In this document: piece after piece, positions 46,581-50,324 of the stretch
Position numbering within the stretch: the stretch's first letter is position 1
Layout of the letters: each line of letters starts with the position of its first letter
Origin: Candidatus Electrothrix scaldis
Lineage (GTDB): Bacteria; Desulfobacterota; Desulfobulbia; Desulfobulbales; Desulfobulbaceae
Reading direction: 5' to 3'
Assembly (NCBI GenBank): GCA_033584155.1
Contig: CP138355.1
Coordinates: 124,001 to 188,000 of the forward strand
DNA: 64,000 nucleotides
The notes under the pieces: generated by a model
Told to the model about the DNA's origin: nothing
What the model saw: only the letters and a program-made list of their open reading frames with translations
Databases searched by the model: none
Translations under genes and position numbers: made by a program

Positions 46581-46644
46581 TCAAGCTCTCCTCTACTCTT
46601 TATCTTAAGATATTGCGCATAACAAGGTGGTAAGGAAAAAAGGT

Positions 46645-48117
46645 ATGGAAAAAAATCAGCTAAAGACTGTCACCGAGATTTTTTCCGAAGCATGGGATCT
46701 GTATAAAAGCAAGGCCGTTTCCATCGTGCTTGTTGCCATCATCTCTCTCCTTGTGAGCGCCCTTGTCCTCGTCGGAGGAGCAACAGCAGCCTTTTTCGCC
46801 CTAGGTGGACAACCTTTCTTTGCAGGAGATCTTCGCGAACTCCTCATGAACCCAAAAGTCCTTGGAGCAGGCGTTCTCTTGCTCCTTTCGAGCATTCTCC
46901 TGGCTTCCTGGAGTCAAGCTGCTGTTCTTACGGCCACGGTTCGTCAGGACAGCAGCATCCCTGGTGTGCTCATAAAAAGCTGGAAATATGCCTTCCCCCT
47001 TCTCTGGATCACAAGCCTTTATGTCGGGATTATTACGGCAGGAATCACCTTCTTTGTTCTCCCAGGCCTGATACTCGCCTTATCACTGTCCTTTTGTTTT
47101 TTCAGTATGGCAGATGAAAATCGGACAGGCATTGATGCTCTTCTTGCCAGCCGATTCTATGTACGGGGACATTGGTGGAATACCTTGTTCAAACTCCTGC
47201 TGGTCTGGATACCTGCGTTGTTCATCAACCTCATTCCTTTCCCCTTCGTCCCTCAAATCCTCACCTTGTTTTTCACACCCTTCCTGATGCTCTACACGGC
47301 AAGGGTGTACTCTGATCTCAAAGAATGCGCAGAGGAGAGCGAGCCCTCCCTTGGTTTAGGCTGGCTTTGGGTCCTTTTCGGTGTATTCGGATTTCTTCTT
47401 CCACTGCTTACGGTTATCGGTTCCATCGTGGCTCTTGGTCCCCAGCTCCCCGAGATCATCAAGCAGGTGCAAACAAACGCCAATCAAGCTCTTGGCAGAG
47501 AGCTTTTCCCTCAGATTCTAGATGATTCTCGAAAAAATCCTGATAAAAAACCAGGCAAACCTCCGCTCGTCCGGCAACTCCCTTCTATAAATGGCTTCCT
47601 GGTCTGGAGAGACCCCATCGGAGACACCCACAATCCTCTTTTGGATATCAAAGAAGTTTCCGCAAAAGGAGAACAGGATAACCTCATCCTTGCTATTACC
47701 ATGATTCGGCCTTTTTCCGATTATTTCCTCTCTGCAAAACCAGGTAACTTTGACTCATTGGTCAGCTTTTACCTGGATACCGACACCAATCGAGCAACAG
47801 GAGGTACGCCTTTTAAGCAAGACCAGAGAAGAAACGGATATGATCTGGATGTGCAGGTACAACTTGTCGTACAGCAAGGGAAGAATACGTCAGGAAGGGC
47901 GGAAGCAAGCCTGTATCAGCTTTCTACCAATGAAAGAAGGTCTATTGGAACGTTGGATAAAAATGCTGTCACTGTATCCGGGGATACAGTGACAATTCGT
48001 GTACCTTATACGCAGTTGAAGGCCGCTTCCGGGGATATCATCAGAGTCTGCTATCAGGAAGCGGCACAGGAAAAGGGACGCAGCTTAGCCAAGGATAAAT
48101 TGGTGCCGCTCAAATAA
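46645..48117 (+). CDS. Multi-spanning membrane protein with a C-terminal strand-rich domain
   Basis: About 490 residues from ATG 46645, preferred over the GTG at 46627 because AAGGA lies 8-9 bases before it. Residues 1-270 contain about six helices and a glycerophosphoryl/DUF-like arrangement (VTEIFSEAWDLYKSKAVSIVL at the start is typical of proteins that bundle a membrane domain of unknown function). Residues 310-490 are soluble and beta-rich, including YLDTDTNRATGGTPF, a feature resembling secreted carbohydrate-binding or DOMON-like strands. Function unknown; it follows yggU after 64 bases. Confidence 0.75.
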   Translation: MEKNQLKTVTEIFSEAWDLYKSKAVSIVLVAIISLLVSALVLVGGATAAFFALGGQPFFAGDLRELLMNPKVLGAGVLLLLSSILLASWSQAAVLTATVRQDSSIPGVLIKSWKYAFPLLWITSLYVGIITAGITFFVLPGLILALSLSFCFFSMADENRTGIDALLASRFYVRGHWWNTLFKLLLVWIPALFINLIPFPFVPQILTLFFTPFLMLYTARVYSDLKECAEESEPSLGLGWLWVLFGVFGFLLPLLTVIGSIVALGPQLPEIIKQVQTNANQALGRELFPQILDDSRKNPDKKPGKPPLVRQLPSINGFLVWRDPIGDTHNPLLDIKEVSAKGEQDNLILAITMIRPFSDYFLSAKPGNFDSLVSFYLDTDTNRATGGTPFKQDQRRNGYDLDVQVQLVVQQGKNTSGRAEASLYQLSTNERRSIGTLDKNAVTVSGDTVTIRVPYTQLKAASGDIIRVCYQEAAQEKGRSLAKDKLVPLK

Positions 48118-48126
48118 GGGCTCTTC

Positions 48127-48525
48127 TTACTTGTGGGTAACCGGATAACTGTTCATAAGCCACTCAGTCCAACCGCCGCTCAAGGCGTAAACATGCGTAA
48201 AACCCTTTTCCATGAGCTTCTGGGCCAATCGACCACTTGTCCCTAAGCCCTCACAAGCACAATAAAGGACCAGCGGGGTGTTTTTATGAAAGTTCTCTGC
48301 CCAAACATCTACTTTATCGCCTGGCAGACGAATTGCACCAGGAATTTTATTATCACTGGCATTCCAATGATTATCAGCGCGCACATCCAAAATCGTGTAC
48401 TCATAGGAACCAAGCTTGGACTTCAGCTCCTCCTTGCTGATCGTTTGAATATCAGCGGAAAGTGCTTGATTTGCACCACCTATCCCCAGTAATACGGCAA
48501 CGACGAGCAGCAGAATGTTTTTCAT
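48127..48525 (-). CDS. Periplasmic rhodanese
   Basis: A 132-residue single-domain rhodanese from ATG 48525 (an AGGAG box is directly upstream; the frame extends to 48561). Signal peptide MKNILLLVVAVLLGIGGANQALS. The domain has ILDVRADNHWNASDNKIPGAI, the active-site loop LYCACEGLGTSGRLA with the nucleophilic cysteine, and the final GGWTEWL. It should carry sulfane sulfur in the periplasm. A diverged second copy with an in-frame TGA in the same loop lies directly upstream on the same strand. Confidence 0.9.
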   Translation of the reverse strand: MKNILLLVVAVLLGIGGANQALSADIQTISKEELKSKLGSYEYTILDVRADNHWNASDNKIPGAIRLPGDKVDVWAENFHKNTPLVLYCACEGLGTSGRLAQKLMEKGFTHVYALSGGWTEWLMNSYPVTHK

Positions 48526-48635
48526 GACATTTTCTCCTTTATAAAATAGTTGCTGATCCATTTACTTGTTGCTTACAGACTGTCTTGACTCATCAACAGG
48601 GCATGGGATGCTTCAACTACTGCAACCAGAAGAGC

Positions 48636-48948
48636 CTATTTCTTTTCCACAGGAAAATCACCAGCCCTCCATTGCCTCCAGCCCCCTTTTCAGGACATAG
48701 ACATCAGTAAAATCTCTTGCTACGAATTTGCGTGCCAAACTGGCACTGCCTCTTTCGTTCACTCATGAACAATAGAGAATCATTGTATTATCCTTAGGTA
48801 AGAATGACGACCATTCATCAAAATTATCCCACGTCACCTGGATTGCGCCGGGGATTTTAAACTTACTACGGCTCCAGCCTCTTATTAAGTATCCAAGGGC
48901 CGTCCCGATGCAACATACTGATTTTATCTTCAATAAATACACATTCAC
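48636..48948 (-). pseudogene. Rhodanese homologue with in-frame TGA (selenocysteine-type), 5' end damaged
   Basis: A second rhodanese reading on the minus strand: FKIPGAIQVTWDNFDEWSSF, then TMILYCS, a TGA at 48763-48765, and the frame continues VNERGSASLARKFVARDF and DVYVLKRGWRQWRAGDFP to TAG at 48636. The TGA replaces the second cysteine of the CxC loop of its neighbour (YCAC). Sixteen bases after the TGA a perfect 5-bp hairpin GTGCC-AGTTT-GGCAC (48746-48732) with a GT in its loop fits a bacterial SECIS. Upstream, a KISMLHRDGPWIL segment lies in another frame, consistent with a 2-base deletion before RGWSRSKF, and no signal peptide is found. So the Sec part looks intact but the N-terminus is broken or misassembled. 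Confidence 0.7.
48732..48746 (-). promoter_or_regulatory. SECIS-like hairpin for the rhodanese TGA
   Basis: Stem GTGCC / GGCAC with loop AGTTT, extended by an outer GC/GC pair around an A bulge. It begins 16 bases after the TGA, and the loop GT lies 22-23 bases after it, within the distance that bacterial SelB hairpins require. Inference from structure; no selenocysteine genes are in the window. Confidence 0.55.
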
Positions 48949-49415
48949 TCTCTATCTACTAGCACTGTACAGTTTTTTACATTGCATGTACAGTTTTTTT
49001 TATATTAAATTTTTAATCTTTTGTAAATAATTGCAACAGCGTGGCACACATTTCTGTAACCAAGACCAGGAAAGACCTCTCTTCCTGGCCTCGTTAGGGC
49101 AACAACCCAATATGGGTTCGATATGAATTTACTTTCTCGCAGAGCATAAAAAGGAAGAGATCGAAGTAAAACAAGAAAAGGAACACTGAGCAAGGAAGCG
49201 ATAATGGCAAGGAGGGGGTAAAAAAAGACAAAAAAAACCGCAAACCAATGAAGGCTACGGGCTTTACGTCAAAGTCAAAGGACGAGATGGACTCGTAACC
49301 CTCTATTTTCCCTCTGTCAGTTCCTCATACAGGGCAAAAAGAAACTGCATCCTTTTCAGTTCGTTGGCAAAGGCCTGCCGCTTCTTGTGACGGCAGCTGA
49401 GCCTTAAAAAAAACA
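48949..49415. other. Repeat-rich intergenic region
   Basis: AT-rich spacer without a credible gene. It contains a direct repeat GTACAGTTTTTT (near 48966 and 48990) and a degenerate copy of the tRNA-Leu terminator region (49231-49290). Open frames here lack family resemblance. Confidence 0.5.
49231..49290. repeat. Degenerate second copy of the tRNA-Leu downstream region
   Basis: A-run, then AACCAATGAAGG and ACGGGCTT, ACGTCAAA and GACGAGATGGA, matching the sequence between the tRNA-Leu(CAG) 3' end and its terminator (53306-53360) in the same orientation, with several changes that spoil the hairpin. No tRNA is present here. Confidence 0.6.
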
Positions 49416-49594
49416 GGCCCCGCCTTTAAAAGATGATAACTGTCCTTTTTATTCCAGACCCTCGGCATGAAAAGGTGACGACTGTTTTTTTAATTCCAAG
49501 CCCCCGTCTTTAAAAGAAGATGACTGTCCTTTTTATTCCATGCCTCCGGTATTAAAAGGTGATGACCATTCTTTTAATACCAGGCCTCCGGTTT
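49416..49594. repeat. Tandem 41-42 bp palindromic repeat, 4.3 copies
   Basis: Units start at 49416, 49457, 49499, 49541 and (partial) 49583. Each has a C-rich head, a TTAAAAG-type stem, a GATGACTGTC-like middle and a CTTTTTATTCCA end. In the fourth unit the stem TATTAAAAG/CTTTTAATA is a perfect 9-bp inverted repeat around a GTGATGACCATT centre. Lengths 41, 42, 42 and 42. Not CRISPR: repeats are directly abutting with no spacers. Confidence 0.85.
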
Positions 49595-49722: not shown

Positions 49723-50103
49723 TCAGCCCGACTGCTTCCTGAAAAACTTCACTCCCGGCAGCCCCTTGAAATGCGCGTCCGAAGTAACCAGCAGGGCCTC
49801 ATGAAAGCGGGAGGTGGCATAGATAATGGAATCTGCAAAAGAAAGGGAATATTCTGCGGAGAGATCAGCAGCGGAAAGGGCTATTGCTGTTGACAGGGGA
49901 ACAACACTGCCCTGTTCAGTTATGGCTGCGGCTTCCAGAGCTGTCTGAAGATTCCGCTTCCGGGCAGTCCATTTATACAGCTCATACTGAACTGAAGTCG
50001 GCACGATGACCGATTCAATCGGGCTGAAATACGGTTCAAACTGAGCACAAAGCGGACCGTCTGTCAGCCACTCAATCCAGCCGCAGGTATCAATCAGGAT
50101 CAT
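49723..50103 (-). CDS. vapC: PIN-domain toxin, VapC family
   Basis: A 126-residue RNase toxin from ATG 50103, where the typical start MILIDTCGWIEWL begins (the frame is open to 50151). The PIN acids are Asp5 in ILIDT, a glutamate in VQYELYKW, and the aspartates in ALSAADLSAEYSL and SFADSIIYAT. It should cleave tRNA or rRNA when freed. It overlaps the VapB stop by 4 bases. Confidence 0.93.
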   Translation of the reverse strand: MILIDTCGWIEWLTDGPLCAQFEPYFSPIESVIVPTSVQYELYKWTARKRNLQTALEAAAITEQGSVVPLSTAIALSAADLSAEYSLSFADSIIYATSRFHEALLVTSDAHFKGLPGVKFFRKQSG

Positions 50104-50324
50104 TCCGGGCTGCGCTCCGTCCTGTCCCTGTATTCGGATGAATCCGCGCATTCACAGCCGGAGAGCATGCCCTTTGCCTCCTTAACTGATCGCTGCGGGA
50201 TCAACTCAATGATACGGCCCCGCGCAAGCAGGGTGAACTGCTGCCCGGCTCTGAGGTCAAGGGCGTTGCGCATGGCTTTGGGAATGGACAACTGAAATGT
50301 GCTGGAGAGTTTTGCCTGAAGCAT
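50100..50324 (-). CDS. vapB: AbrB-type antitoxin, VapB family
   Basis: A 74-residue antitoxin with a swapped-hairpin AbrB N-terminus (LSSTFQLSIPKAMRNALDLRAGQQFTLLARGRIIELIP) that should bind the promoter as a dimer, and a charged tail (SGCECADSSEYRDRTER) that inhibits VapC. The ATGA overlap with vapC shows coupled translation. Confidence 0.93.
   Translation of the reverse strand: MLQAKLSSTFQLSIPKAMRNALDLRAGQQFTLLARGRIIELIPQRSVKEAKGMLSGCECADSSEYRDRTERSPE

Follow-up and report, generated by a model that had tools for sequence, protein, structure and literature searches.

A probable remnant of a selenocysteine rhodanese gene upstream of its intact cysteine homologue in Candidatus Electrothrix scaldis

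Results

The window analysed here, a stretch of 64,000 nucleotides from Candidatus Electrothrix scaldis, carries on its minus strand a gene remnant in decay that, with a probability of about 0.88, represents the first gene of an Electrothrix rhodanese tandem, in which a selenocysteine (Sec) form precedes a cysteine (Cys) form. No working product is expected from it because the start, the signal peptide and the N-terminal third are gone, and the remnant presumably has no function. The copy, from a known selenoprotein family, is dying and almost certainly a pseudogene. The genome (G000) is a single contig of 5,089,909 bases; the relatives search covered seven other genomes of the genus (G001 to G007).

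The rhodanese locus

The remnant comprises positions 48636 to 48883 (minus strand), the part that can be aligned clearly with intact orthologues; it extends from about codon 50 as far as the homologous TAG stop, as seen in an alignment with four intact orthologues and the G005 copy. Its partner is an intact Cys-form rhodanese (MKNILLL... YCAC) at 48127-48525 (minus strand), with an ORF open from 48561 and a putative signal peptide, judged by eye. The in-frame UGA of the Sec position (YCS-U) is at 48763-48765, read 48765-48763, and aligns without gaps on the minus strand with the second Cys of YCAC in this neighbour, where the earlier note had placed it. The window copy presents an in-frame UGA aligned with Cys in homologues, the pattern of a selenoprotein gene. 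Both genes show the YCx[U/C] loop of the family NF041203, as YCS-U in the remnant and as YCAC in its Cys partner. A 61-aa ORF is read downwards from 48948 and ends at this TGA; read through the UGA, it continues as YCS-U-VNERGSASLARKFVARDFTDVYVLKRGLEAMEGW and then meets another TGA as stop, the homologous residues after the UGA being VNERGSASLARKFVARDFTDVYVLK. Sixteen bases separate the UGA from the stem of the GTGCC-AGTTT-GGCAC hairpin at 48746-48732, also in agreement with what had been claimed.

Other elements were identified upstream of the rhodanese locus. Direct repeats with a 42-nt spacing are present at 49415-49582, and similar TTTTAAAAG-rich repeats were recognised by eye upstream of the locus in G001. 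One minus-strand ORF (49723-50151) resembles, by eye, a VapC-type PIN toxin, and another (50100-50324) an AbrB-type antitoxin. Collinearity between G000 and G005 ends from about 49650 onwards, which suggests that an insertion or rearrangement has its boundary close to this locus.

SECIS hairpin

The hairpin alone is weak evidence, because some perfect 5-bp hairpin occurs 10-40 nt on from 192 of the 2305 TGA triplets in the window (both strands); 12 of the 2305 meet a stricter SECIS-like rule. The 51-nt fold of the window hairpin has a z of -3.08, and 2 of 200 shuffles fold equally well.

Among the homologues, the codon at the Sec position is TGA in 16 of 16 Sec copies and TGT or TGC in 8 of 8 Cys copies. 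All 16 Sec copies form five out of five standard stem pairs, with G-U allowed, and in 15 of them the 45 nt that follow the UGA include the stem in their minimum-energy fold. The exception is the G008b copy, where the paired arms are present but the minimum-energy fold is a different one. The 8 Cys copies have 0-3 of the 5 pairs and the stem is formed in none. Homologues with an ordinary stop and no hairpin had been named beforehand as evidence against a Sec protein; homologues were instead found to have the UGA and the hairpin at this site.

Stem conservation and covariation were examined in 97 distinct stretches drawn from 118 Sec loci, some of which are one record found twice. The 118 comprise 74 unfiltered loci and 44 added by a filter. 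Because the filter demanded AG at +16/+17, G at +23 and T at +38, these columns carry no evidence for the 44 added loci. Left out were L095, L099, L104, L135 and L170, where the motif was not placeable, and L010 and L041, with two candidate stretches each. The stem pairs are standard in 96, 97, 97, 97 and 97 of the 97 loci. The third-codon pair +18/+30 is T-A in 82, C-G in 11, T-G in 4 and C-A in none (Fisher p 1.4e-11, ignoring the relatedness of the loci), and pairing is the natural reason for this covariation because AGT/AGC and GCA/GCG are synonymous. In a control set of 79 stretches, which lacks 37 of the 44 added sources, the mutual information of +18 with +30 is 0.423, and with 10 other third positions it is 0.000-0.106, the highest being +12, a value reached by 16 of 1000 permutations. 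The window hairpin at 48746-48732 is very probably a genuine SECIS, and it is the conservation in the family that makes it compelling.

Selenium machinery and the dispersed paralogue

The genome encodes selA, selB, tRNA-Sec (selC) and selD, each with a match over its cut-off; the tRNA-Sec scores 75.3 bits against a gathering score of 47. The absence of sel genes, which the earlier note had named as a ground for rejecting its proposal, does not apply, and the sequence is borne out as that of a selenocysteine rhodanese with a SECIS by these genes together with the UGA and hairpin conserved in homologues. The selD gene (L060, G000:C1:3826318-3827244) has an in-frame TGA and may itself encode a selenoprotein.

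A second, intact Sec copy was identified at G000:C1:2882858-2883265, also with an in-frame TGA (MKKILFL...VVYCSUHSEGSSASLARKL...YPVEKK). This dispersed paralogue is 46% identical to the Cys neighbour and is present in G000, G001, G003, G004, G005 and G007. It was not found in G002 (93% complete), which keeps an intact tandem Sec copy. The dispersed paralogue is likely, by prediction, the working Sec enzyme of G000.

Family membership

Eight proteins were scanned with the NCBIfam model NF041203 (rhodanese_LYCAU, 'rhodanese-related (seleno)protein', curated cut-off 115 bits). The intact orthologues, the paralogues and the Cys neighbour are over the cut-off: the tandem Sec copies of G003 and G007 score 150.4 and 147.0 bits, the dispersed Sec copy 145.3 and the Cys neighbour 143.7. 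The G005 orthologue reaches 105.5 bits, and the window remnant differs from the family in being 5'-truncated, with 78.1 bits against 115. With Pfam PF00581 (gathering score 22.2 bits) the remnant is recognised at 27.9 bits, the Cys neighbour at 55.8 and two other intact proteins at 62.8 and 62.5.

In the class, 68 of 257 genomes have an NF041203 match over the cut-off. The 83 matches in these 257 genomes, counted from the listing, comprise 72 with an in-frame TGA and 11 without it, the latter from the genus of the window (7) and one other genus of the same family (4). One family member over the cut-off (G246:C295:7135-7473) has two in-frame TGA codons. A contig scan covered the best 80 of 149 relatives; the motif was placed in 75, with UGA in 74 and TGT in 1, a ratio that leans to Sec because the query alignment held Sec proteins only.

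That CxU rhodanese selenoproteins had been described before, as the earlier note stated, agrees with NF041203 and with the listings of two reviews, PMC9312934 and PMC13188914, which give the same example protein, TKB26178.1. The entry in PMC13188914 is 'Rhodanese-like domain-containing protein form 3', with a CxU motif and assigned to NF041203; the motif and the UGA position are common to this form and the present family. The CxU rhodanese of PMC9312934 has the same motif and domain, going by the description there, which gives no experimental function for it.

The rhodanese domain and the six-residue active-site loop are also shared with GlpE and PspE, single-domain rhodanese sulfurtransferases. 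The present family differs from these in having a second Cys before the Sec or Cys (CxU/CxC) and a signal peptide, recognised by eye.

Active site and proposed mechanism

The active-site loop of rhodaneses comprises six residues. In the present family a Ser is found six residues after the Sec in 29 of 30 aligned proteins (the search began at six), with S96 invariant, a spacing that we take to be that of the rhodanese loop. In the ILDxR motif, D46 and R48 do not vary among the 30 intact proteins. The dispersed paralogue, modelled with Sec read as Cys (mean pLDDT 86.1), matches rhodanese domains in 134 PDB chains at E <= 0.001. In the comparison with 6mxv the loop Cys aligns without gaps with the Sec position rather than with the first Cys; the gapped alignment of 6pfz pairs its loop Cys with the first Cys and not with Sec, so the catalytic assignment is not unanimous.

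An intact first gene of the tandem would encode a secreted NF041203 rhodanese, leader peptides judged by eye suggesting export. The UGA would be decoded as Sec through the SECIS just downstream, and this Sec would occupy the position of the rhodanese catalytic nucleophile, with a Cys two residues before it (CxU). The Sec would accept sulfane sulfur as a selenosulfide, the preceding Cys would resolve it, and the outcome would be sulfur transfer or persulfide reduction in the periplasm.

Damage to the window copy

The start codon, the signal peptide and the ILDxR region are not recognisable in the window copy, and no frame runs unbroken from a start codon as far as the homologous stop. The remnant is joined instead to a leader-like sequence (48884-48965, minus strand) with no recognisable start codon, signal peptide or N-terminal third. 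The DNA upstream of about 48883 matches the 5' part of the gene of G002, G004 and G007 no better than shuffles do; the comparison with that of G003 is borderline: with queries of 100, 50 and 220 nt the score is reached by 45, 6 and 3 shuffles out of 200. The same DNA matches the promoter leaders of G002, G003 and G007, the three included in this comparison, better than 200 of 200 shuffles (220-nt query). The global alignment pairs short stretches immediately upstream of 48883 and opens gaps of 4 and 7 columns there, so heavy decay and not one clean deletion is possible. The missing signal peptide and the decay suspected in the earlier note fit these results. Its single 2-base deletion upstream does not: as the sole 5' defect it is ruled out by the orthologue alignment and the shuffle comparison. 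The 5' loss is common to the window copy and G005.

A second defect affects the 3' part. The A-run at 48690-48687 (minus strand) is one base longer in the window than in the five aligned orthologues, and the homologous end PVEKK-TAG (48638-48636) is consequently out of frame. After the run the window frame ends at a chance TGA (48660-48658) following KRGLEAMEGW. The frame had been said to continue past the UGA with homologous residues to a natural stop; the residues are there, and the natural stop is not reached. The G005 copy stays in frame and ends KGGWRQWRAGDFPVEKK; its open frame, 104 aa from stop to stop, passes the UGA and reaches the true C-terminus, so the C-terminal shift of the window copy could be an assembly error or very recent. 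The A-run is a likely place for a long-read error, and this defect may be unreal.

From GTG 48948 to the UGA, G000 and G005 differ by four substitutions, all four of which alter the amino acid. From the UGA to the homologous stop there is no substitution, only the difference in run length, and the UGA and the hairpin are identical in both. Over 73 codons, and with many dS values near or above 1, G005 gives a dN/dS of 0.10-0.15 when compared with the four intact tandem Sec orthologues, no worse than the 0.14-0.26 seen among the intact tandem copies themselves. For the Cys copies of five genomes dN/dS is 0.00-0.09 in the 7 pairs, out of 10, that have a usable dS. The low dN/dS in the 3' part points to constraint for most of its history, so that the damage is young or some constraint remains; the decay of the window copy is recent, or a residual function persists. 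Few SNPs separate G000 from G005 over the remnant; this was discarded as a sign of selection, the 400 nt at 46600-47000 being equally low (1 SNP).

Comparative series in Electrothrix

The tandem locus was identified in seven genomes (G000 to G005 and G007), with no match in G006 (69% complete). An intact Sec gene lies directly upstream of the Cys gene in G002, G003, G004 and G007. In the remaining three the Sec gene is eroded: it is 5'-truncated in G000 and G005, and in G001 the remnant is the 3' end only, beginning within the SECIS. The Cys gene is open in all seven. From the sequences, the Sec copy was apparently eroded in two independent ways; the erosion in G001 looks independent because the tree places its Cys gene apart from the group formed by G000, G005, G003, G004 and G007 (96/79, not starred). 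A spare dispersed Sec copy is present in all three eroded genomes, but also in three intact ones, and the numbers are small. Redundancy, with both a Cys copy and a dispersed Sec paralogue at hand, would be a reason for the loss of the tandem Sec copy. The selenoprotein losses described for Deltaproteobacteria in PMC1794560, where a gene is lost in sister genomes, are the same kind of event; changes from Sec to Cys are reported there, in a survey of 2006, as few in number.

Origin of the Sec and Cys forms

The tree comprises 38 proteins and uses 14 of the 30 class loci; the window remnant was left out, and the G005 copy included in it is nearly identical to the window copy. The tandem Sec proteins (5 rows: the G005 copy and the four intact copies) form one clade (100/100), as do the dispersed Sec proteins (5 rows, 99/97) and the Cys proteins of the genus (7 rows, 100/99). 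All 10 Cys rows, of which 3 are from the other genus (its fourth, G100, is absent), form a single clade (99/93) nested among the Sec rows, and one state change suffices. This nesting, in an unrooted tree, suggests that the direction was from Sec to Cys. It was also considered whether the tandem pair had arisen by recent duplication within the genus; a clade of tandem Sec and genus Cys proteins is rejected with p-AU 0.022, a modest test on 129 columns.

Upstream element and intergenic stretch

An operator-like element with two AAAAAACTGTACA repeats 21 bp apart is found at 48966-48999 (minus strand). Its pattern is CTGTACA-N4-[AG]TGTAAA-N3-CTGTACA, with the 21-bp spacing of a direct repeat. All seven Electrothrix genomes searched have the element at the rhodanese locus, and where the Sec gene is intact it lies upstream of that gene. 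With up to two mismatches, two sites were identified per genome in all seven, one at the rhodanese locus and one elsewhere, against 0 for a control pattern; three of the second sites, L182, L183 and L184, adjoin a dnaG-like gene (by eye). An Rfam search of three loci around the element gave 0 matches at E <= 0.1. There is no promoter signal in 48100-49400, because the scan found 3 sites against 1.8 +- 1.1 in shuffles. The stretch between the Sec and Cys genes aligns in seven genomes with 73% mean column identity; no convincing conserved RNA structure was found between the genes (consensus -1.95 kcal/mol), nor any terminator-like site between them in the window. Of the upstream signals left to the Cys gene the element would be the most plausible and, at a guess, is possibly the operator of an OmpR/PhoB-type regulator.

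Discussion

It is unlikely that the shortened gene is a working, N-terminally remodelled selenoprotein starting at GTG 48948, with the C-terminal frame loss as an assembly error. The same 5' structure with a frame open through the UGA to the homologous C-terminus in G005, the unchanged UGA and hairpin and the low dN/dS of the 3' part are in line with such a protein. However, the lost part includes the signal peptide, the first strand and both the Asp and the Arg of ILDxR; the four substitutions between G000 and G005 before the UGA all change the amino acid, and in G001 the loss from the same gene goes even further. That the copy is a dead Cys rhodanese whose UGA is an ordinary nonsense mutation, with a chance hairpin and no selenium involved, is extremely improbable. 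The copy is indeed broken and 5-bp hairpins near a TGA are common (192/2305), but orthologues and paralogues with otherwise intact frames have the same UGA codon and hairpin, sel genes are present in the genome and the remnant resembles the Sec rather than the Cys copies. A chance nonsense mutation is ruled out by the homologues and the SECIS covariation.

A third reading, compatible with a dead protein, is that the remnant is kept as a leader in which UGA/SECIS decoding senses selenium and tunes the Cys gene. The operator-like element remains upstream in 7 of 7 genomes, the intergenic stretch aligns in all seven (73% mean column identity) and both eroded versions lose the 5' part and retain the 3' part. 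G001, however, has neither the UGA nor the SECIS 5' arm and yet keeps its Cys gene, the intergenic stretch has no convincing conserved structure (-1.95 kcal/mol) and, in the window, no terminator-like site, and we consider the leader very unlikely. A wider proposal, rated just as low, would make the Sec/Cys tandem a selenium-dependent isozyme switch for periplasmic sulfur, with the eroded Sec cistron of some species as a regulatory leader for the Cys enzyme. The preferred reading is still a decaying remnant of the Sec gene.

The enzyme family is already known, and its value here is the use of Sec in cable bacteria. In the literature searched, no report of selenoproteins or selenocysteine use in cable bacteria was found. 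A 2026 paper on cable-bacterium sulfur metabolism counts up to seven rhodaneses per genome (PMC13047784), and by a word search its main text contains no word beginning with selenoprotein or selenoc-. Ordinary annotation would cut such rhodaneses at the UGA, and rhodanese counts for cable bacteria may therefore miss Sec forms. The locus also offers a small comparative series of seven genomes, with the Sec gene intact in four, 5'-truncated in two and a 3' remnant in one, and the Cys homologue retained. The finding indicates that cable bacteria use selenocysteine, and its value lies as well in the visible stages of the loss of a Sec gene and in the probable change from Sec to Cys.
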